64,000 nucleotides of DNA from Symbiotaphrina buchneri (Eukaryota; Ascomycota; Symbiotaphrinales; Symbiotaphrinaceae). This document shows positions 15,313 through 27,371 of this stretch, piece by piece (the first letter of the stretch is position 1; the number at the start of each line of letters is the position of its first letter). The position numbers and the translations under genes were made by a program. A model generated the notes under the pieces. That model worked only from the letters and a program-made list of their open reading frames with translations, did not search any database and had not been told where the DNA came from. The stretch covers positions 62,001-126,000 of the forward strand of contig BCIG01000023.1 of NCBI GenBank assembly GCA_001599915.1, read 5' to 3'.

Positions 15313-17456
15313 TCAGAGCGTGGACTTGCCGTGTCGTATTCGCAGGTCAAGACGGTATGCCAGACGACCGACCTTCTCAAGAACCTTGAAGGGACCGACA
15401 CGCTGTTCCGATAGCTTTCGATTCGGTTTGCCTGCAACCTGATAACCATGGTGGAGCTTCAAGTACACGGAATCGCCGACACGTAGGTTGATAGGAATAT
15501 GGCGTCGGTCGTAGTATACTTTGGTCATGGCGTTGCCGAAGGCTATCGAGTCGCAAGCCTCCTGTACGTGGATTTGTCTGGCCTCAGCTGCAGTGGACGC
15601 GCTCGAGAGCTGTTCTCCAACTAGAAGGTTGAGACCGTCATTGAGCTTTCGGCCGTGAATAACCTCGTTTGGAGCCCGTCCAGTGGTTGCATTCGTCGCG
15701 TTATTGAGTTGCGATTCTAGCTGTTTGCAAAAGCTAGACCAGTCAGAATCGAGGGTATCGATCCGTTCCGACTCGTCGTCTCCGGAGGTCTTGACTCCAC
15801 GAGTGGTCAGCCAGAAACGCAAAGCGATTTCGACGGTTTGATTTGTCCTCTCGCTTTCTGAGTTGTATGCACCTTGGTTTGTACCAGTGTCCTGAGTCAG
15901 GGAATGCTGATCGGGAGGCTGACCGGCCGAGTCTGGACCTTGGTCATAACTGTCCGTCGGGTCGCCCTGGTAGGCTCTCTGAGAACGTGCGTTGGGATTA
16001 GGCTGCCCTGGATTAAACTGCCCAGGCCGCGAGTAGCGGGTCCCGTTGTACCAATTGTTTCCCGAGTTGGATGCGTAGCGATTGGGGTTGCTGTTTGAGA
16101 CGTTGACGTTTGCTCCAGACGGGCCGGCGGTGATCTGCAGACGGGGCGGCGGAGCAGGTAAAGCTCGGCTGTCTCCCTGATACTGACCTTGGTTGGCATT
16201 GGGATAGTACTACTGGCCTTGGTAAGTGTTGTATCCTGGCTGATAGGGTTGAAAATTAGACTGTTGGAAACGGGGGTTGAAACCTCCGCGGAAGGATGGC
16301 CTAGGAAACTGATACTGGCCGAAACAAGAGTCTCGATTGTTACGATTCTCCCGACTGTCGCGACCAGGGTCGCGGAGATCACGGGTTCTTTCAGTACGGA
16401 CCTCTTGATAAGAGAAGTCGTCGAACCAGTTGGCCTGCTTGCGCTTGAGAGTCTGTATGAACTATTGGATGGTCGTGCCACGTTCTGTTTCATCCATTAT
16501 TTGTCTGAGTAGCATATCTAGTCATATCCAGGCTTTTATTATGATGCTGAAATCGTCAGTGGCCCGCTCGGCGGCCCTGGCGACCGACTGCACAGCGTTG
16601 ATATACTCTGCAGCAGTACGGTTGTTCTGAGCGTCTTCGACCGTATATCGAACCGAATTGAGTTTCTTCTAAGCTTTCATCAGGGTAGGTCTGAAACGTG
16701 TCTCTAGCTGTTGACACCACCTATCAACCAGGCTAGGGTGGTTGATGATACCGATTCGAAAGATGTTGTTCAGCTTAAAGTTCTACCAAGACTGAGCAAG
16801 ACTATGTAGATAAGTCTTGAGGTTTTGATGAATTTTGATCGGGTCACAAGTCAGAGCAGCCACTCGGACATGATTCGTAAACTAAACACGTCGCAATAGT
16901 ATATCTTGTCGTCTTTATCAACTACGTCTTCAGTGCTGTAGCTGTCTGGCATGTCCGGGTAGAAGAGACCGATCTCGGAGGCCTTCCAGTGGCTGCCACT
17001 GCCACCAGGTCCTGCTGGCCCAGGTGGGCCTTGCTCGCCAGGCTCCCCAGGCGGGCCAGGTGGGCCGCGACCTTGATCCTGATTGGCACGTCGTATAGAG
17101 GCTTCGATAACTTGTTGAATAGCTGTCCATGCTGCAGCCGTCATGCCAGGTGGGACCTGGTCTGCAGGGTCTGGATTCATTCCGTCCGAATGGCAGGGTA
17201 TCTCGCCTTCAACTGATGTATCGGGACTCGGCGAGAGTGGTGTAGAACGACCCTGTGTCGACGTTGTGTGTGTATATCGCAGCTGCAGAGGTCGTCCGAC
17301 TGGAGAACAGGGCCTGGGAGGCAGACTGTTTCCTGTCGAGGGAGGCCGGCGTTCCTCTCTGAATCGTCGGTACGCTTCGGCGAGCTGAAAATCGACAGTC
17401 TGGAGTCGGAATTCATCCACAGCACGGTTAAAATCCCACCGAGTTCGCGAATCCAA
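15313..17456 (-). mobile_element. Ty3/Gypsy LTR-retrotransposon fossil (Gag and integrase remnants)
   Basis: Read right to left, a Gag-like part comes first (17456 to about 16850), with a collagen-like Gly-Pro-Pro stretch and ending near HWKASEIGLFYPDMPDSYS. Further Gag-derived sequence follows (about 16500-15900). Then comes the C-terminal part of a Gypsy integrase (about 15822-15313) with GRAPNEVIHGRKLNDGLN and VGDSVYLKLHHGYQ. Protease, reverse transcriptase and RNase H are not present between them, so the copy is internally deleted and broken several times. No 5' LTR is visible; a possible short 3' LTR lies at 14999-15166. Its Gag end lies 24 bases from the stop codon of gene B. Age looks moderate: protein similarity is still easy to read. 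Confidence 0.75.
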
Positions 17457-17480
17457 TAGATTGGTTAATCCTTCGTCAAC

Positions 17481-20145
17481 TCATTCGACGGTCTGAACCA
17501 TCTTCCGGATAACCTCCAGCAAGGCCATCGTGTCATTCGAGGCATCGTGGTACTTGAGATCCGATTCAGGATAAAGAGCACGATGGACAATCGGCAACTT
17601 GCAGCTTAAAAAACCAGTCTGCATCGCCATGAAAAGTCTGTAAACTGGTATAAACGGTGGACAGGCAAATGTGTTATCAACAACAGGTGAGGATTCGTCG
17701 CCGTACAATATCCGCGCGAACAGGACTTCATCAATTCGACCTATATTCCAACTGAGCAAGGTGTGCGTGGTTTCTGAGTAACCGAGTTCTAAGATGGTCC
17801 TGCGTATATCACCAATGCTCTTTCCATGTGTGCGGCCCGTTCGGTAGACCCTGATCACAAAGTTGCGAAAACGGCTGTACTGTGAGGCCGTGGAGGTATT
17901 GCGCGGATTCCTTATGAAAGGCTCGATTTCGTCGTACAGCGCGGGTATCGTGAGGCCATAGTCGATTAGACTGTCGATAAGAGAGTCTCCAGCGAGAGTT
18001 CTGATGCTGATCTGTGCAGGTATTGCCAGTTTTCCCTGGGATATCGGAAAAAACTCGAAATCGAGAATCCATGTGGTGTTAGCTTGATTATCGAGCGATG
18101 GATCCAGTTTCAGTAAGATCCGCTTCTCTGTACTGCTGAGGTGAGAAGACCTGAGCCCCGGCCCGGGATTATCCAAAGGAGAAGTAGTAGCGGAAATTGG
18201 AGGAGAAGTTGTAGCGGAAGTTGGAAGAACTGTTGGCATACCGTGTTGCAGAATTCGTGTGGTATGGAATACACAGTACCTTGAATACGGGGCGGTAGGC
18301 AGATGGCAGTGCGCCGTCAGCTGACACGATAGCAGACCATCCACATATTGCTTTGAAGCCACGCTTACGCGATCGTCCAATTCCCTCTGGTCAGATGGTT
18401 CTTCGGTATGGGATGTAGGAACCTGTCGTTGCGGTGGCTCAAATATGCATGCGTCGATAGACACTTCCATATGATTCCCCTGCGATCCGGAGCCTGAAGC
18501 TGCAGAAGCTGATTCTAAGGTGAAAGCTTCCAAAGAGACAACTTGGAATGGCCGGTCGGGAGGAGACTGCAACCACGTTATCACAGGTTCACGAGCAATA
18601 ACCCGTTCCAGAAGCGTCGACATCGTAGAAAACAACTCTATGGTAGACCCAGACCTCTCTCCACTTCGAAGATTGAGAGGACTGAGACCCCAAGAAAGAA
18701 CAAACCGGCGAAATGTCCATACTCCCTTTGCCGGCCGATGCTCCGTAAAAAACAGATCAACGTCCTTGCAAGTTAGTAAACTCGAATGGACAAACTTGTC
18801 CATGATTTCGTTCTGGAAGGGGTCCTGTCCTCTTTTCCATGGTCGACGCCATGGTGTGAGGTCCGTCCGTCGGGGAACAAAAGACCCAGAGACAAATGTA
18901 ACGAGTGGGAGAATCCATTGCCTGCCATCCGAGGACAATATCAATGCGGCGAAGTGTTTATACACGGAATCCGAGCCAATACGGATTGGCATTATACTGC
19001 GAATCTAACAAGATTCAGGTCAGCCTCGACGACTTAAACAGAACATCCTGGTCTAAACTCACAAGACTGCTAGATTCTAGAAGAGCCCTGCAGGCAATTG
19101 CAACATATTTCTGGTGGCGATCGTCTCGAGATGACAGAGATGTCCCATAGAAGCGTTTTGCGATATCCATAACAGTCGGTCGTTGGCCCATCAAAGCTGT
19201 ACCGTCGTACATATAGGAGGAAGCGCTGAAGTGGTCGAAGTTTATGTCTTGCGTACAGGACACTAGCCCATATGGAGGATACCCGGGGTGTGGGTGCGTT
19301 CGTTCACCTCCCAGCCAGACGCAGAGGTCCTCTAGTTGACTGGCATTTTCCACGGTTCTGAGCATACCCTCCAGGCCGACGAAAGGAACGGGATGCTGCC
19401 ATGTATGCAAAGCTCGCTGTCTCACCAGTGAGTATGGCAGATGATAGCTGAATTATTTGGCAGGCACTCACATGGAGATCATCCGCGCTTGCTCCATCAG
19501 GAAGCATCAGTCTTTTCAAGGTCCTCTTCGACTGCTGTGCTAGATATTGATTACCCGGGTGATATATACCTTCACCAGCTGATTGTCCCATACCCTGGAC
19601 AGGACCTTCACCAGCTGATTGTCCCATACCCTGGACGGGACCTTCACCAGCTGATTGTCCCATACCCTGGACGGGACCTTCATTCACGACATCATTCATG
19701 GAGAAGTCGACAGACTCTCCATCGCTGACATCACCCTGCGGTTCGGTTGGAAAGTCGATAGACTCTCCAAGTACACCACAAACTTGGCCACTGCCGTCCA
19801 TGGGAAGATCGATAGATTCTCCGACTTTGGATAAACATGACCCAGAGCCAAGCGCTTCAGCGGCCAGGTTGTCCGTATTCTTGAAAATCTTCTTATCCAG
19901 TCCTGTTTCTAGTATCTTAAGTATGCCACACGCCTTTTGATGTCTTTTTCGGGACGGAAGGTTGCGGAACACGTCATTGCTGTTACTGAGTTGCCGCTTT
20001 ATGTCGGTTTCGGTGTAGAAGGCTTGATCATCAAGAAGATGAATGAATTCCCTCCCAGGGAACGCTGGTAGCCCGGAACTTCAACAGAATCAGTATTCGT
20101 ACGAGCTCGTGAATTAATTACTTACAGATCATGATCGATTGGCAT
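17481..20145 (-). CDS. Gene B: DEDDh 3'-5' exonuclease-like protein, 834 aa
   Basis: Four exons, 20126-20145, 19472-20078, 19063-19416 and 17481-19004, join in phase. The C-terminal domain (about residues 635-830) shows the DEDDh pattern: ILDFEFF gives Asp642 and Glu644, RIDEVLF gives Asp752, and KYHDASNDT gives His813 and Asp818. This fold removes nucleotides from 3' ends of DNA or RNA. The N-terminal half is unrecognised. It contains three copies of the 12-residue repeat EGPVQGMGQSAG (19570-19677) and Ser-Ile-Asp motifs (GESIDLP, GESIDFP, GESVDFS, VSIDACI), which also mark the neighbouring gene A. Residues 210-327 (YPPYGLVSCTQDINFDHF) look globular. It lies head to tail about 1 kb downstream of gene A on the same strand. 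No frameshift or stop is seen, so the gene appears live. Start choice (20145) is the first ATG of the spliced frame; an upstream extension is possible. Substrate and role unknown. Confidence 0.65.
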
Positions 20146-21191
20146 CGTGAGCTTGAGGTATCCACAAGTCAAGAAGCAGGCACCCAGTGCACAAGCAGAT
20201 GAGTGAGGAAGATGAGTGAGGAAACAAGCCTAGCACAGGAACCATCAGGACGGGAGTGGGAAGATAGACTACCACTGCGGTTCAGGATTCTGCGTTGGAG
20301 AGGGGTCCACCTACCGAAAGCTGTATAATTAGCAGCGAGAGGGCAGCGAGAGGACACAAGAGGTCTGAAAGTGAGGCTGCAAACGTGTGGTTGAAGAGAG
20401 GTGTTGCGGATGGTGAGTTGGGATGAGGAAGGGCAGTAATTAGTAGGTAAACATAGCTGCAAACCTTGGAAGCGCGAATTCACTGTGGAAGCGGAAAGGA
20501 CGATGCACGAATCATCACTCCAATATTTTGAAACCCAACGATTCCGAGATCCCTAAATGCCAGTTTAAGGTACTAATTTTCACAACACACCCGCTTTGGG
20601 TTGCCACGAGGCGTATTTGCACCTCAGCTTCAGAATTGCGTAGCAGGAGAGAATTGACAGGCCTTTACCTACCGACTCTGACAACTGCCCTAGTGCTGCG
20701 GGACGAGACATGGGAGTCTCTGAGCCAGGCTACAAGGGGGTTTTGCAGAGGACTGTCCGCTGCAGCAGCAGCTGGTAGACTACCATCATCGAAGATTCTT
20801 TCTCTGGGATCATGTAACGAAGAGGTAGAAGAGTTTTCTTGATACTGCAATATAGACGTGTCAGAGAGATTACTGCTTGAGCCAATCAGCCTCTGTCTCG
20901 AATAGCAAAGTGCCTGCAGCAGAATAAGATCACATAAAGTATCAAACCGTCGCATGGAAACAATATAGCTCGTCCGATATGACAACTCGTCCGATATGAC
21001 AACTCGTCCGATATAACAACTCGAGGTATCAGCTGCAAACAGACACTTAGAACCCATGAAAGCCACTTCATCAGACCCCAGATAGAGCAAGTCCGTGATA
21101 CACATCCTGCAAAAAGGCTTATTCTCGTGTCAAACGATACATGTCTCATGCCCAGCGCAGCCCACGTCGATAGACACGAGCGCTGCTGTAC
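20146..21191. other. Spacer between genes A and B
   Basis: A minus-strand frame (20665-21105, 146 codons from an ATG) has no recognisable domain and may be leader or a further exon of gene A. It contains three tandem 17-bp units (CTCGTCCGATATGACAA) at 20969-21019. One GTCGATAGAC copy lies at 21166, just past the gene A stop, where a different frame reads ALVSIDVGCAG. A downstream exon of gene A that restores this motif is therefore possible. Confidence 0.4.
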
Positions 21192-23534
21192 TCAGACGCC
21201 TTGGGAATCCAGGGCCGTGTTTATCATGTTCCAAGTTGCGCAACCAGCCCTATGCCGAGTATACGTATCCTCATTCGGAAAACCTAGCATGCACAGACAG
21301 ACAATATCCTCGATCGGGTTGGCAAGGATCGTTGTACATGAACGCTTGTAATGTTGGCGTATATTTGCTGATCTGGAATACTCTTTGCGGCATACTGTGC
21401 AAATAATAGAGCCATTACGGGTACCAGAGATGTCATTTTCTGCTACCCAGAACAAGGGCCGGAGTCTATCGGAAAGTTTCAAGTGTGAAGCCACCAATTT
21501 GGCTGTCTCAAGCGGAACCCAGGTGCCTATTCATAGTTAGCTATAACGTCGTACTCGTACCATTGGATAAATAGACTCACTCTTTGGGTCAATCTCTAAT
21601 CCGAAACGGCTGGACACCAGAGACACAACCGAGGTAAGTCTGAACAGCCGGCCGGCCAGACGGTACATGTCTTTCAAGTCGACTTCATTGTGGTCCATTC
21701 GGACTGAAATGCCTCCTTCGATGAAGCGGAAACGAGCTAAAGCTCGCTGGATTGTCGACTGGCCGGGCTGCATGGGCATATTTTTTTTGATTTCGGCCAA
21801 TGGGGATATGTCCCAACTAGGAGGTACAGTCACATTATCTGCATCTGAGGCAGAAAGTACTCGAGTACGTTTGGCCTAACGAGCTACTTATTAGAGCTCA
21901 TCACACGGATCAGAGGGAAGCGATGTTACTGACAGTGTGAGGTTCGTCTCTGCTTCCGACCGCACTGATGTCTGAGTCAAGGTCACGATACCGCTTCTCT
22001 CCCTGTATGTTGCATCAGCACCGTAGCAGCGCAAGGGCCGAAACACCATACCCGACCAGCAAAGACAGTCTGTCCCGAACGAAGACGTATGCCTCCTGAA
22101 TTTGAGTCGATCGACTCAAATTCGGGAGACTCGACGGAGCGAGGTGAGCTTAAGACGCTAGACCCTGGTGCAGAGGCGGCATCATCATCATCGAGGAGCT
22201 CAGTAACAAGATAGTCATCAAACAGCGAATCGTCATATTCATCGTCTGAATAACTGTCTAAACGTGCTGTAGGTGTATCCAGTCCATTAGGCAGATCCAC
22301 TGGCTGAAAAGACAAGTGCATGGCCGCTGGTGGCATAGTGGTTGGCCGCGTGGTGGGAGACCGAGGCTGAGCACTTGTGTCGTCAAGACCATCCATCACG
22401 CCATGTGGGTCGATAGACCCATCGGCTACGTCCTGAGCTCCATGAATAGCTTGCTTACCTAGAGAACAAAATAACCAATCAGCATGACAATATAATACCT
22501 AGTTTGATCACGTACCATTATCAAGATACGATTGTAGCTTTGTCTGGACAAGCTTCGTGGAAGGGCGTCCGCTCGGTGGACCACGCCCTACAGGACCTGG
22601 GACACAGGGTGTTGACATAGGATTCTGCTTGCTGGAAGGACCGCTCCCTGAACGCCTCGCTGTATGAAGTTGTGATGGTTCAGGCTGAGCACTATCAGGA
22701 ACACCGGCAACGCCAGTTGGGTCGATAGACCCAGCAATGGCACCATCTGCTCCGCAAACAGCTTCCTTAGCTGTATAGCAAGGCAAGTGATCAGTACGAA
22801 GTCCACAGAGCGTGGTCCGGTGACGTACCTTTCCCATGAGAAGATTGTACCTTCCGACCAGGTTGACCGGCATGCTTCGTTGGTTGAGGTGGTTTCTGGG
22901 TGGTTTCAGATCGTCGAGGGGTCAGTAGGTTCGTGCTAATAGGACGTAAAGCACCAGCAACACGTTTCGAGTAAGAGACCCTTTGTTCGTGAATCTCATT
23001 AGACGCCAATGAGCTTCCACTGGCTGGAGGCGTTGGGCGCCAGACTCCCTTGCTGTCCAGGCCAATCCTTCCTTGCATGGCTGGGTCTATCGACCCAGCC
23101 AGCGCAGGACCGGAGGAGAAGACAGAGTCTTCACCGTTCTCATCATTCTTGCCATCATCGTCGGGATCGTCAACGATAACTCGCCCAATCGACACCAGGT
23201 CCATTCCCACCTGCCGCAAGATGAATCTTCTCACCTTGTGGGGCTTGAAAGTAGTCCCCTTGACCGGCCACCAAAACTTACAGCTATCCAGGCATTCCCT
23301 GATAGCATCATGAAGGAGATTCTTCGTCTTGTACTGCAGTAACAAGCCGGACGTATCTGGTCTGAGCAAGGTCACTGCTGCCAGGACCGCCTTTGTACAA
23401 TCTATAGGAGTTAGGACGATGCAAAGTGTGACTTGAGGTTAAGACAACTCACGCTCGCTCAGTGTAACCTTAGGACCATTCGTTGACCGGGAGCCAGTGT
23501 CTAAGTCGATAGACTCAAACGTAGGCGCGGCCAT
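21192..23534 (-). CDS. Gene A: APSES/KilA-N-like DNA-binding protein with Cys/His fingers, 671 aa
   Basis: Seven exons join in phase: 23453-23534, 22829-23401, 22516-22770, 22052-22458, 21934-22002, 21581-21875 and 21192-21526. Residues about 505-587 resemble the APSES/KilA-N DNA-binding domain: FIEGGISVRMDHNEVDLKDM, then STWVPLETAKLVASHLKL and LRPLF, matching the GTW-P-L-A-A-LRPLF core of Swi4/Mbp1/StuA proteins. Two C2HC-type fingers follow (Cys603, Cys606, His619, Cys624; Cys637, Cys639, His652, Cys656). Residues 28-95 form a small globular region (LHDAIRECLDSCKFWWPVKG). The middle is disordered and carries Ser-Ile-Asp motifs at every exon scale (FESIDLD, AGSIDPA, AGSIDPT, DGSIDPH, FESIDSN). 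A sequence-specific nuclear regulator is the natural inference; targets are unknown. No disruption is seen. It is the upstream partner of gene B on the same strand. Confidence 0.65.
22093..22128. repeat. 36-nt near-perfect palindrome inside gene A exon 4
   Basis: Centred between 22110 and 22111. The first 13 base pairs from the centre are perfect (22098-22123); the next five continue with a single T-G mismatch. Its core GTCGATCGAC encodes the FESIDSN copy of the Ser-Ile-Asp motif. Confidence 0.9.
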
Positions 23535-24565
23535 GACAAGTTGTGAGATCAAAGGTGGAAGAGCAGTTCAACGGTTCCGAGACCAATTGGTGATCAGGGT
23601 GAGAAGATTGCGTAGTGTTACCAACTGGTGAAGAGTGTGTGGAACGCGTTCTGAAGAAGAATATGTGCATTAAGAAGGAAGAAGGGAGAAGACAAAAGGA
23701 GGGAAGACACCCAAGGAGAAAGCCAAGCTGCGGGTACACAGGCCATCTCGACAAGCTGCGTCATCGTTGAAAAAAGGACCTATTTAGGCAAGAGGAAGCT
23801 TGTGAAAGGCATCTGCTCTCTCTGGAACAATGAGCGTTAAGGTCATTATGTCGAGGAAGGTAGGAAAGTAGGAAGGATCGTGAGGTAGACCGCTGCTTCC
23901 TACCTTTCTGAGTATCAGGACTGGTGACATATTATCGAGGGTTCCTTACTGTTATATTACTCCGTTGCCTTTCTTGGAGTCCTGAGCCTACCCTCTGCAC
24001 ATAGTGCTTGCAAACTCTCCATATCGCGGGGATGAGCAGATGGCGGGCAATTGAAGTCTGGGCGCCGTGCGTGCAATACGGAAGATGATGTAGAGGCAGA
24101 CAGTCGCGTAAAGGGTGGGCTGGCGTACCCTGTACTGAGCTATCCGAACGCGGACCGGAAGGAGTAAGGTAGGTATCTATGTCTGGTTAGCACCCCTGCG
24201 GCACCCCTGCGGCACCCTGCGGCACCCCTGGTCTGCCAAGTGACGCTAATTAGCACATCCCGTCGCTGGTTCAAAGGATAGCTACCTTGTTCTCCTGAAT
24301 GGCGTTACCATATTCGGGCCAAGTCAAAACCGTCCAACTGGTCAGGTTACCCGATTCGCAAGTCTTGTCAACCGGTATCCCGTACGCTGGACAGACGATG
24401 GGGCTATCGTCGATGTCCCCGAGGACGAGTGGATGCCTGTCCCATTGGTCCATGACTGGACAATCCGGAGGAAAACAATCTCATACCGTCTAGCGTCAAG
24501 GACATGACTCAGAGCTCCTGATCAACCAAGTTTTTGATAAGATGCACGAAGAACGATGTTAGAAT
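23535..24565. other. Region upstream of gene A, no supported gene
   Basis: Likely the gene A promoter and leader, followed by decayed sequence. A short G/C-rich tandem repeat (GCACCCCTGCG-type units) lies at 24191-24231. The last 300 bases probably belong to the adjoining Gypsy fragment but cannot be read with confidence. Confidence 0.45.
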
Positions 24566-25469: not shown

Positions 25470-27371
25470 ATGACTGAACCAGAAGCAAAAAACAGTCAGT
25501 ATTTGTCTTGTTCGTCTGCTCTGACGAACTCACCTCTTCATGTATGACATCAAATTCTGACCTACAGCTATTAGCAACAGAGAAAACCATCAAATGACCC
25601 AAGCCATCGACCCGGCACTACTGTCCACCCTGTCAACCGGACAGGATAAGCCTTCACTTGTCCACCTGCCTCCAAATACCTTGTTTGAATTCGACAACCT
25701 CCTAAACGACACTGGAGTTGATCTGTCTCCGATCGACGATGTTTGTTCATCATGGAAAGCTCGGACGGTCAGAAAGCCGGAACATACGATAATGTCCTGT
25801 GATTCGGTTGACATCACGTTGAATCTTAAAGGAGCCATTGCACTACAGTTCCCCAGCGGAAGCTATAGTATAAAGATGGAAGCCTTATCAGTACAAGAGA
25901 TACTGTATGTCGGCCCGGACGACGGTTCAGAGTCCGACGGACCGGAGGAGGACCTTGACGGCCCGGAAAGCTCTTCCATTTGGTACATAAGGCGCATCTG
26001 GGGCGGCGCTGCGTCGCGTATGGACTTCATAGAGGGAGAGGAGCTCCCTAACAAGAATTTGACAGAGGTGACTCTTGGCTCTGATGTACAGGATGGGTAT
26101 TACCGCAGAATGTTTCGTGGAGATATACCGATCGCGATGCGAAGAGTTGACGAACCGGACTCATTCCCGTTGACTGGATCGAATATTCAAGCAGAAGGGT
26201 CAACACAGGCTCTGTCGACAGGATCTGACGGGCAGATGGAACACAACAAGACAGACAACAAGACGAGGCCATTGTCATGGTACAGTCCCGAAATATGGAC
26301 AAATGGGGATGGTGATGGGCACGAGACTGATTCCCGGGAGTGGAAGCTATTCTGCCCTACTGCTCAGGACAGCCTGTCAAAAGCATTGGTACCCAAGTAT
26401 GTTATATGCGGCGACATATTCGTCGCCTGGTTAGTGGAACGGTCGGGGCTCAGGGTTCGCGAGCTATACAAGTATTACTTTGCGGACTGGGCGAAGGGAG
26501 GCACGATCTTCCAGGCGAGAAAGCATTATGGGCCCCAGCGTATGACGCCAACCGCAGGATTAAATGTTACAGAGGTTACCCACTGTTCGGCACTGCGCAG
26601 CAATCAGACACGGCAGAATGGGTCAATATCAACCGTCCTGATAACAGGGACCAGATGTTGCCCGACAAGCCCTGGGACGATGCTGTGGCAAAACACTTCA
26701 TGTGGAGTTCAGCCAACCCGCCACCAACCAAGAAGCACAAGACAGCCGCATTGTCCGGCCTATCCGCCTCGCCTCTGCAAGCCTTGTCCGGCCNATCCGC
26801 CTCGCNTCTGCAAGCCTTGTCCGGCCCATCCGCCTCGCATCTGCAAGCCTTGTCCGGCCCATCCGCCTCGCNTCTGCAAGCCTTGTCCGGCCCATCCGCC
26901 TCGTCTCTGCAAGCCTTGTCAATAAAGCGGCCAAACTTGCTGCGTGGGTCACCCTCTGGACCGGCGACAACGACCAGATTGCGGACCCGTTTCTCAGCGT
27001 CTTCATTCAAGGATCAGATAGCCAGCCAACCTAATCCGACATATACCTATCAGCATGAACAGCTAACAAGTCTAAAGGAGAGTGTCGCGAAGCTGCAGCT
27101 AGACTTGGCGGACGCGAATCAGAAACTGGACATGGCAAGACGCACACAAGCAGACCTTCAAGTTACAATTGGAGGGGTTGCAAGGACGTTGTATATAATC
27201 ACTGAGGTGGCCCAGGATGGACGACCCGTCTTATCAGCCGATCAGGCCTTTCAGATGGCCGCTGGACAGTTCGAGCAGCTGATCAGAAAGTATACAGAGC
27301 CGTTGATTCAACGGTGGGTGGACGAAGCGGACGAGCAAGGCGCCCCGCCGATGGGTCCGGCTGATAACTAG
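25470..27371 (+). CDS. Gene C: unrecognised 580-aa protein with minisatellite and coiled coil
   Basis: Exon 1 is only 25 bases (25470-25494, MTEPEAKN). Exon 2 starts at 25568 and reads MTQAIDPALLSTLSTGQDKP onward. The frame must shift between about 26400 and 26600. An 86-nt intron (26472-26557, GTATTA...CCGCAG) restores it in phase, joining RELYK to IKCYRGYPLFG; a plain frameshift is the alternative. The protein then has five 11-residue repeats (LQALSGPSAS type), a basic stretch, a coiled coil (LTSLKESVAKLQLDLADANQ) and an acidic tail ending at 27371. The N-terminal 300 residues look globular (KYVICGDIFVAWLVERSGL) but match no family I know. AIDPA near the start resembles the SIDP motifs of gene A. 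It lies divergent from gene A across a Gypsy fragment. Function unknown. Confidence 0.5.
26752..26920. repeat. 33-bp coding minisatellite in gene C
   Basis: About five units of CTGCAAGCCTTGTCCGGCCC plus ATCCGCCTCGC(A/C)T. Being a multiple of three, it keeps frame. Three isolated Ns (26794, 26806, 26872) sit in it, suggesting collapsed or heterogeneous copies in the assembly. Confidence 0.85.

Follow-up and report, generated by a model that had tools for sequence, protein, structure and literature searches.

Two neighbouring genes and a repeated 10-mer

The window analysed here is a stretch of 64,000 nucleotides (nt) from the ascomycete Symbiotaphrina buchneri (assembly GCA_001599915.1, contig BCIG01000023.1, positions 62,001 to 126,000). 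It contains two neighbouring, co-oriented genes, which we call gene B and gene A, and a 10-mer, GTCGATAGAC, that recurs in and beside them, together with close variants, at ten sites. On the coding strand the 10-mer makes up a loop and its three closing pairs, GUC-UAUC-GAC. We show that loop and closing pairs are conserved, whereas the rest of the stem undergoes paired substitution to an extent that synonymous codon choice does not explain. With a probability of roughly one half, the 10-mer is the conserved tip of stem-loops in both messenger RNAs (mRNAs), which would probably be protein-binding sites for coordinated control. The exons of both genes are spliced predictions without internal stops and rest on sequence.

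Gene B, 23534-21192, minus strand: predicted, 671 residues, no internal stop; introns of 49-58 nt; seven exons at 23534-23453, 23401-22829, 22770-22516, 22458-22052, 22002-21934, 21875-21581 and 21526-21192 (stop included).
Gene A, 20145-17481, minus strand: predicted, 834 residues; introns of 47-58 nt; four exons at 20145-20126, 20078-19472, 19416-19063 and 19004-17481.

Our recount agrees with the original prediction of seven exact and three variant copies in 5 kb, at the same positions. All seven exact copies in the window lie within 18453-23514; dinucleotide shuffles of the window contain 0.13 copies on average, and none of 100 reached seven. The word is also enriched at the locus genome-wide: the organism's own genome (23.38 Mb, 82 contigs) holds 41 exact copies, seven in these 5 kb against 34 across the remaining 23.4 Mb. 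The 34 are scattered, none within 80 kb of another, and the genome-wide rate predicts about 0.007 copies per 5 kb. No other dispersed 10-mer of the locus is as frequent (seven places, versus three for the runner-up). Both DNA orientations occur, as had been reported, with six exact copies on the plus and one on the minus strand (23085). The variants are GTCGACAGAC at 19706, GTCGATCGAC at 22106 and ATCGATAGAT at 19808, the last encoding Ser-Ile-Asp (SID) at gene A residue 95. The pattern GRGTCNATNGACYC is found at ten places in the genome, four of them at the locus (about six are expected by chance, by our arithmetic; the reversed control gives one), and its six other places include two, C31 and C57, that are taken up below. 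TGGGTCNNNNGACCCA is found at four places, three of them at the locus.

On the coding strand, a gap-free alignment of all ten sites centres on G-N-GUC-UAUC-GAC-N'-Y. Below, z compares RNA folding with that of shuffled sequences, and bits refer to a covariance model built from these same ten sites, so that their scores are high by construction.

E1, 23495..23524, minus strand: gene B exon 1, FESIDLD; nine contiguous pairs including G.U; loop UAUC; z -3.9; 30.8 bits.
E2, 23075..23104, minus strand: gene B exon 2, AGSIDPA; ten Watson-Crick pairs; core inverted, with loop GAUA on the coding strand; z -5.5; 27.6 bits on the minus and 34.4 on the plus strand.
E3, 22711..22740, minus strand: gene B exon 3, AGSIDPT; six contiguous pairs; loop UAUC; z -1.85; 29.8 bits.
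E4, 22399..22428, minus strand: gene B exon 4, whose start resembles that of exon 3, DGSIDPH; six contiguous pairs; loop UAUC; z -0.7; 28.2 bits.
B5, 22093..22128, minus strand: gene B exon 4, FESIDSN; perfect 26-bp palindrome (22098-22123) within a longer imperfect one; loop GAUC; z -6.5; 31.7 bits.
D, 21156..21185, minus strand: just past the predicted gene B stop; nine pairs, three of them G.U; loop UAUC; z -1.25; 30.7 bits.
A1, 19798..19827, minus strand: gene A exon 2, GESIDLP; loop UAUC; z +0.7, no better than shuffles; 28.1 bits.
A2, 19744..19773, minus strand: gene A exon 2, GESIDFP; ten pairs on the coding strand; loop UAUC; z -4.5; 33.3 bits.
A3, 19696..19725, minus strand: gene A exon 2, GESVDFS; stem with a bulge; loop UGUC; z -3.5; 22.6 bits.
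C, 18443..18472, minus strand: gene A exon 4, EVSIDAC; five inner pairs, then an interrupted outer stem; loop UAUC; z -2.0; 27.2 bits.

At five of the ten sites the folding z lies between -6.5 and -3.5. What the copies have in common is mainly the core; arm sequence is shared among E2-E4, as GGG/CCC, and among the three copies in gene A exon 2. Some of this redundancy is ordinary duplication, both among those three copies and at the similar starts of gene B exons 3 and 4; each of these exons follows a phase-1 intron, and we read the pair as a probable exon duplication. An Rfam scan of window positions 17400-23800 found no family (best score 23.9 against a gathering score of 50 bits).

Stems change by paired substitutions

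Across the ten sites, 76.2% of the cells of a 13-pair structure are paired, compared with 61.4% in shuffled alignments, and the covariation score is 0.477, compared with 0.215; neither value was reached in 500 shuffles. Sliding the partner by 1-3 bases lowers the score to 0.07-0.27. Nine of the 13 pairs have changed on both sides, a count that 24 of 500 shuffles reached. When the likely duplicates E4, A1 and A3 are dropped, the remaining seven sites score 0.560 versus 0.217 (0 of 500 shuffles), and their both-sides count is reached by 14 of 500. At position 10/21, for example, four copies have A-U, three have G-C, two have U-G and the last is unpaired; position 9/22 divides evenly between G-C and G-U (five each).

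Because related sequences can inflate such a shuffle test, genomic controls matter here. The inverted symmetry of the flanks, remarked on in the original prediction, is confirmed. Of the 100 outer pairs at the ten sites, 54 are Watson-Crick; the 34 copies elsewhere in the genome give a chance-like 81 of 340, and 38 copies of GTCTGTCGAC give 73 of 380. Four or all of the five innermost outer pairs (G.U allowed) form at 8 of 10 locus sites, at 2 of 34 other copies of the 10-mer and at none of the 38 copies of GTCTGTCGAC. Other GTCnnnnGAC words in the window have an average of 3.0 of 10 outer pairs for the 11 outside the locus and one and three pairs for the two off-motif words inside it.

When synonymous codons were redrawn at the nine coding sites with the Ser-Ile-Asp codons fixed, the observed 50 of 90 outer Watson-Crick pairs exceeded the mean of 40.9 (P 0.001); for six independent sites the values were 39 of 60 and 30.9 (P 0.0004), and with G.U allowed and five pairs considered P was 0.006 and 0.0075. 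Something acts on the nucleic acid as well as on the peptide, as had been supposed. The peptide-held null is itself high, at 40.9 pairs versus 22.5 for random sequence, since the flanking residues already follow the pairing (Gly-Pro; Glu-Phe/Leu/Ser; Val-Ala).

One reading frame, and a possible peptide motif

All nine copies inside predicted coding exons share one phase and read Ser-Ile-Asp, or SVD for the copy at 19706; the tenth, at 21166, lies beyond the predicted stop codon of gene B. Residues beside the tripeptide track the pairing (G..P, E..F/L/S, V..A). Site E2 matches E3 in inverted orientation over 29 nt (86%), and both encode AGSIDP because the core reads SID in that phase on both strands. 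For six independent origins we calculate a chance of about 0.004 of a shared phase. The alternatives are that the peptide is important too, or that the structure depends on the phase.

The shared phase is what a short linear protein motif, [EG]-S-I-D-[PLF] in low-complexity linkers, would produce, with DNA identity left over from recent duplication and codon bias. The similarity of exons 3 and 4 and the three neighbouring copies in gene A fit such an origin, as does the gene A exon 4 stretch, the sole site that can be aligned with relatives, which differs in both of them; a C31 copy described below likewise reads ESID in an open frame. We nevertheless regard this explanation as improbable. It does not predict the extra pairing at synonymous sites, nor copy D past the predicted stop, nor a further C31 copy whose longer open frame is in another phase, and the covariation of the flanking residues as base pairing demands speaks against the motif as sole cause. 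The original suggestion of a docking motif spread by duplication fares poorly for related reasons: the pattern survives the collapsing of duplicates, arms vary while remaining largely complementary, and the arrangement recurs on C31. Known docking motifs resemble the locus in being short peptides repeated in linkers and differ from it in that here nucleotide pairing is kept outside the motif and extends to the copy past the stop.

Related structures elsewhere in the genome

Elsewhere in the window the best covariance-model match is 14.3 bits. Among 43 loci that included all 34 other copies of the 10-mer, C31 scored 28.6 and C57 22.1 bits and the rest at most 18.6; the only further scores above that level came from the C31 and C57 places read on the other strand (20.5 for C31). 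C31 is one of the two non-locus 10-mer sites with at least four of five outer pairs, and it sits in a tandem array (L067 4131-5240; G000:C31:126131-127240) with three copies, two of them 209 nt apart, plus a fourth copy of one box. At E 0.1 the array unit matches nothing else in the genome, and an Rfam scan of L067 3800-6400 found no family (best 21.8 against a gathering score of 47). The array also contains conserved boxes and sequences that could fold as UUCG-loop hairpins.

Two of these copies, c1 and c2, have flanks that are 63/72 and 75/90 identical (83-88%), whereas between the flanks only 6 of 31 ungapped positions agree. Both have the core GTCTATCG, offset by one base between them, and both fold, with different arms that still pair (z -4.1 and -2.6); c1 is paired at 12 of 13 positions. 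The array suggests that stems can be renewed faster than flanks while pairing is kept. The third copy, c3, has the loop UGUC and a weaker fold (z -0.2). Since the 10-mer itself led to C31, the core there does not count as independent evidence, but the arms and the neighbouring copies do. The ESID phase is open for 45 codons at c1, and c3 lies in a 124-codon frame of another phase.

At C57 the core copy (L068 4220-4249) has seven consecutive Watson-Crick pairs and lies roughly 1 kb beyond a large open frame, whose strand is also the UAUC strand.

RNA or DNA

We lean towards RNA rather than DNA structure, without settling the choice. Sites E1, D and A2 form nine or more contiguous pairs (9-10) on the coding strand only, through G.U, while E2 and B5 are perfect on both strands. 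Over the inner eight pairs of the UAUC-type strand, G.U outnumbers A.C by 10 to 4 at the locus (P 0.09), and by 12 to 4 when C31 c1 and c2 are added (P 0.04). Copy D, outside the predicted coding sequence, counts in favour of a nucleic-acid element.

Several observations weigh against an mRNA stem-loop. Summed folding energies are nearly equal, at -144.2 kcal/mol for sense and -138.9 for antisense, and E3, E4, B5, A1, A3 and C31 c2 fold better on the opposite strand. A1, E4, D, E3 and C fold weakly relative to shuffles (z +0.7 to -2.0), the core of E2 is inverted, and the loop of B5 is GAUC. Related rows can beat covariation shuffles without any structure. C31 c2 may be coding, as it reads ESID in the same phase within an open frame of 189 codons that has an ATG; no Pfam model matches that frame. 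That nine of nine coding copies share one phase is explained by neither RNA nor frame-blind DNA. Finally, there is no close orthologue of either gene among the candidates scored: at E 0.001 a 641-residue gene B model had no homologue among 7993, and gene A residues 240-834 had one among 7997 (Penicillium brevicompactum, 25%).

The rival that we take most seriously, while still thinking it doubtful, holds that these are DNA-level palindromes in which template switching between the arms (quasi-palindrome correction) maintains the symmetry; they would have no RNA function, and the core would be an inherited seed. The perfect symmetry of B5 and E2 on both strands, the inverted E2-E3 match and the near-equal strand energies all suit it, and in C31 c1 and c2 the arms look as if they had been replaced outright instead of changing by gradual substitution. 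It leaves unaccounted for the presence of one core in two genes and on C31. Nor does it explain why E1, D, A2 and C31 c1 and c3 pair better on the UAUC-type strand through G.U, and the excess of symmetry is local to the core: of 11 quasi-palindromes found in the window, three are in the locus, and two of those three are on the core.

Adenosine-to-inosine (A-to-I) editing of fungal mRNAs is very unlikely to be the cause. Here the loop A of UAUC, preceded by U, would be edited, converting Ile to Val, and A3 would already carry G. Excerpts from PMC11156358 and PMC9600606 describe fungal editing as favouring sites in hairpin loops, a U at -1 and hairpins of greater stability, and the loop is UAUC at 7 of 10 sites and UGUC at A3. 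An identical loop in all copies is not something that editing predicts, E2 and B5 have no A after U at that position, and C at +2, present here, is called depleted in PMC9600606. The review PMC11156358 places editing in Sordariomycetes and one Pezizomycete, with none in the Eurotiomycete and Leotiomycete examined. TAF7 puts this genome nearest Acarospora-type lichens, a lineage for which the excerpts of PMC11156358 and PMC9600606 report no editing; among the best 120 of 1582 TAF7 relatives, the best named are lichen-type ascomycetes (Pleopsidium 57%, Pycnora 58%, Acarospora 57% and Sarea 62% identity). Edited hairpins, in the same excerpts, do share with the locus a loop A preceded by U in a stable coding-sequence hairpin, and differ in that the locus loop is nearly identical in all copies and one copy lies past a stop codon.

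Least probable of all are DNA binding sites for a dimeric regulator, such as the gene B protein itself: inverted symmetry and the Mbp1/APSES-like stretch of gene B (E 0.007) would suit them, whereas a dimer site has constant arms and here the arms vary with mainly complementarity kept, and predicted exons contain nine of the ten sites. The fixed DNA operator once proposed fits poorly, given the varying, largely complementary arms and the recurrence of the pattern in the C31 tandem array.

The two genes and their surroundings

Gene B contains an Mbp1/APSES-like stretch, its four best PDB chains all being Mbp1 (E 0.007-0.05), although Pfam gave no APSES or KilA-N model at E 1; C2H2-like fingers score under the Pfam cut-offs. 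The last exon of gene A is a 503-residue frame that includes the 18453 copy, an assignment based on its relatives in Penicillium (P0001) and on contig C7. These relatives are P. brevicompactum N7452_000739 (25%) and pieces at G000:C7:665097-666363. Neither has SID at the exon 4 site, the only one alignable, and the 15 kb around the C7 relative contain no copy of the 10-mer. The C7 relative (L013) is distant, with a stop within its last matched stretch. DEDDh-like residues (D.E, N-x4-D, H-x4-D) were spotted by eye in gene A, for which searches for a DEDDh exonuclease identity gave no Pfam match and no PDB relative. An AlphaFold model of the 503-residue exon was too poor to use (mean pLDDT 32.9).

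In a search of the organism's own genome at E 0.001 that covered 182 residues of gene B exon 2, 202 residues of gene B exons 6-7 and gene A exons 1-4, the gene B segments and gene A exons 1-3 matched only themselves and gene A exon 4 matched C7.

Several other repeats lie in the region. Three 36-bp tandem repeats in gene A (window 19568-19682) encode GPVQGMGQSAGE, and three 17-bp tandem repeats, CTCGTCCGATATGACAA, lie between genes B and A (20969-21023). Downstream of the locus is a Ty3/Tf2-like retroelement frame (15316-16209; SH3_Tf2-1). An open frame at 26751-26920 has 33-bp tandem repeats and three single N.

Comparison with known elements and proposed role

Cis-acting mRNA stem-loops read by protein include the histone mRNA 3' stem-loop and the Smaug/Vts1 hairpins. 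Like them, the structures described here combine a conserved loop and closing pairs with a stem kept by pairing, and several mRNAs share the element. Unlike them, they have other loop sequences and are multi-copy, mostly in coding exons and in one reading frame. The copies of Rickettsia palindromic elements and of prokaryotic REPs share arm sequence, whereas the locus copies share mainly the 10-nt core and in this respect do not fit a palindromic mobile element. Both families resemble the locus in being palindromes of 20-50 nt, some of them in genes (for REPs, excerpts of PMC3733652). Titles and opening abstract lines of papers containing one of three letter strings of the 10-mer suggested no such element, and literature searches on UAUC/UGUC loops and on the combined features returned no papers.

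If the 10-mer is indeed the tip of an mRNA stem-loop, the structure would form in the sense RNA, and one RNA-binding factor would read the loop, the three closing pairs and the G at column 9, the other stem positions needing only to pair. The two mRNAs would thus share several sites for coordinated control of stability, localisation or translation. One candidate partner, by analogy alone, is the protein encoded by gene A, which has DEDDh-exonuclease-like residues. A bolder version, which we consider unlikely, is a hypervariable stem-loop family with a fixed UAUC tip, in which active renewal replaces arms wholesale yet leaves them complementary; the structure would then write matching residues (G..P, E..F, V..A) around an invariant Ser-Ile-Asp, in one frame in two genes and also in a tandem array.

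Were the mRNA stem-loops confirmed, two adjacent genes would carry ten copies of one stem-loop absent from the Rfam scans. Nine of these would lie in predicted coding sequence, where nucleic-acid pairing would visibly shape the protein. Having the copies within one genome makes covariation easy to test, and one can test directly whether the turnover of stems is driven by RNA structure or by copying of DNA from arm to arm.

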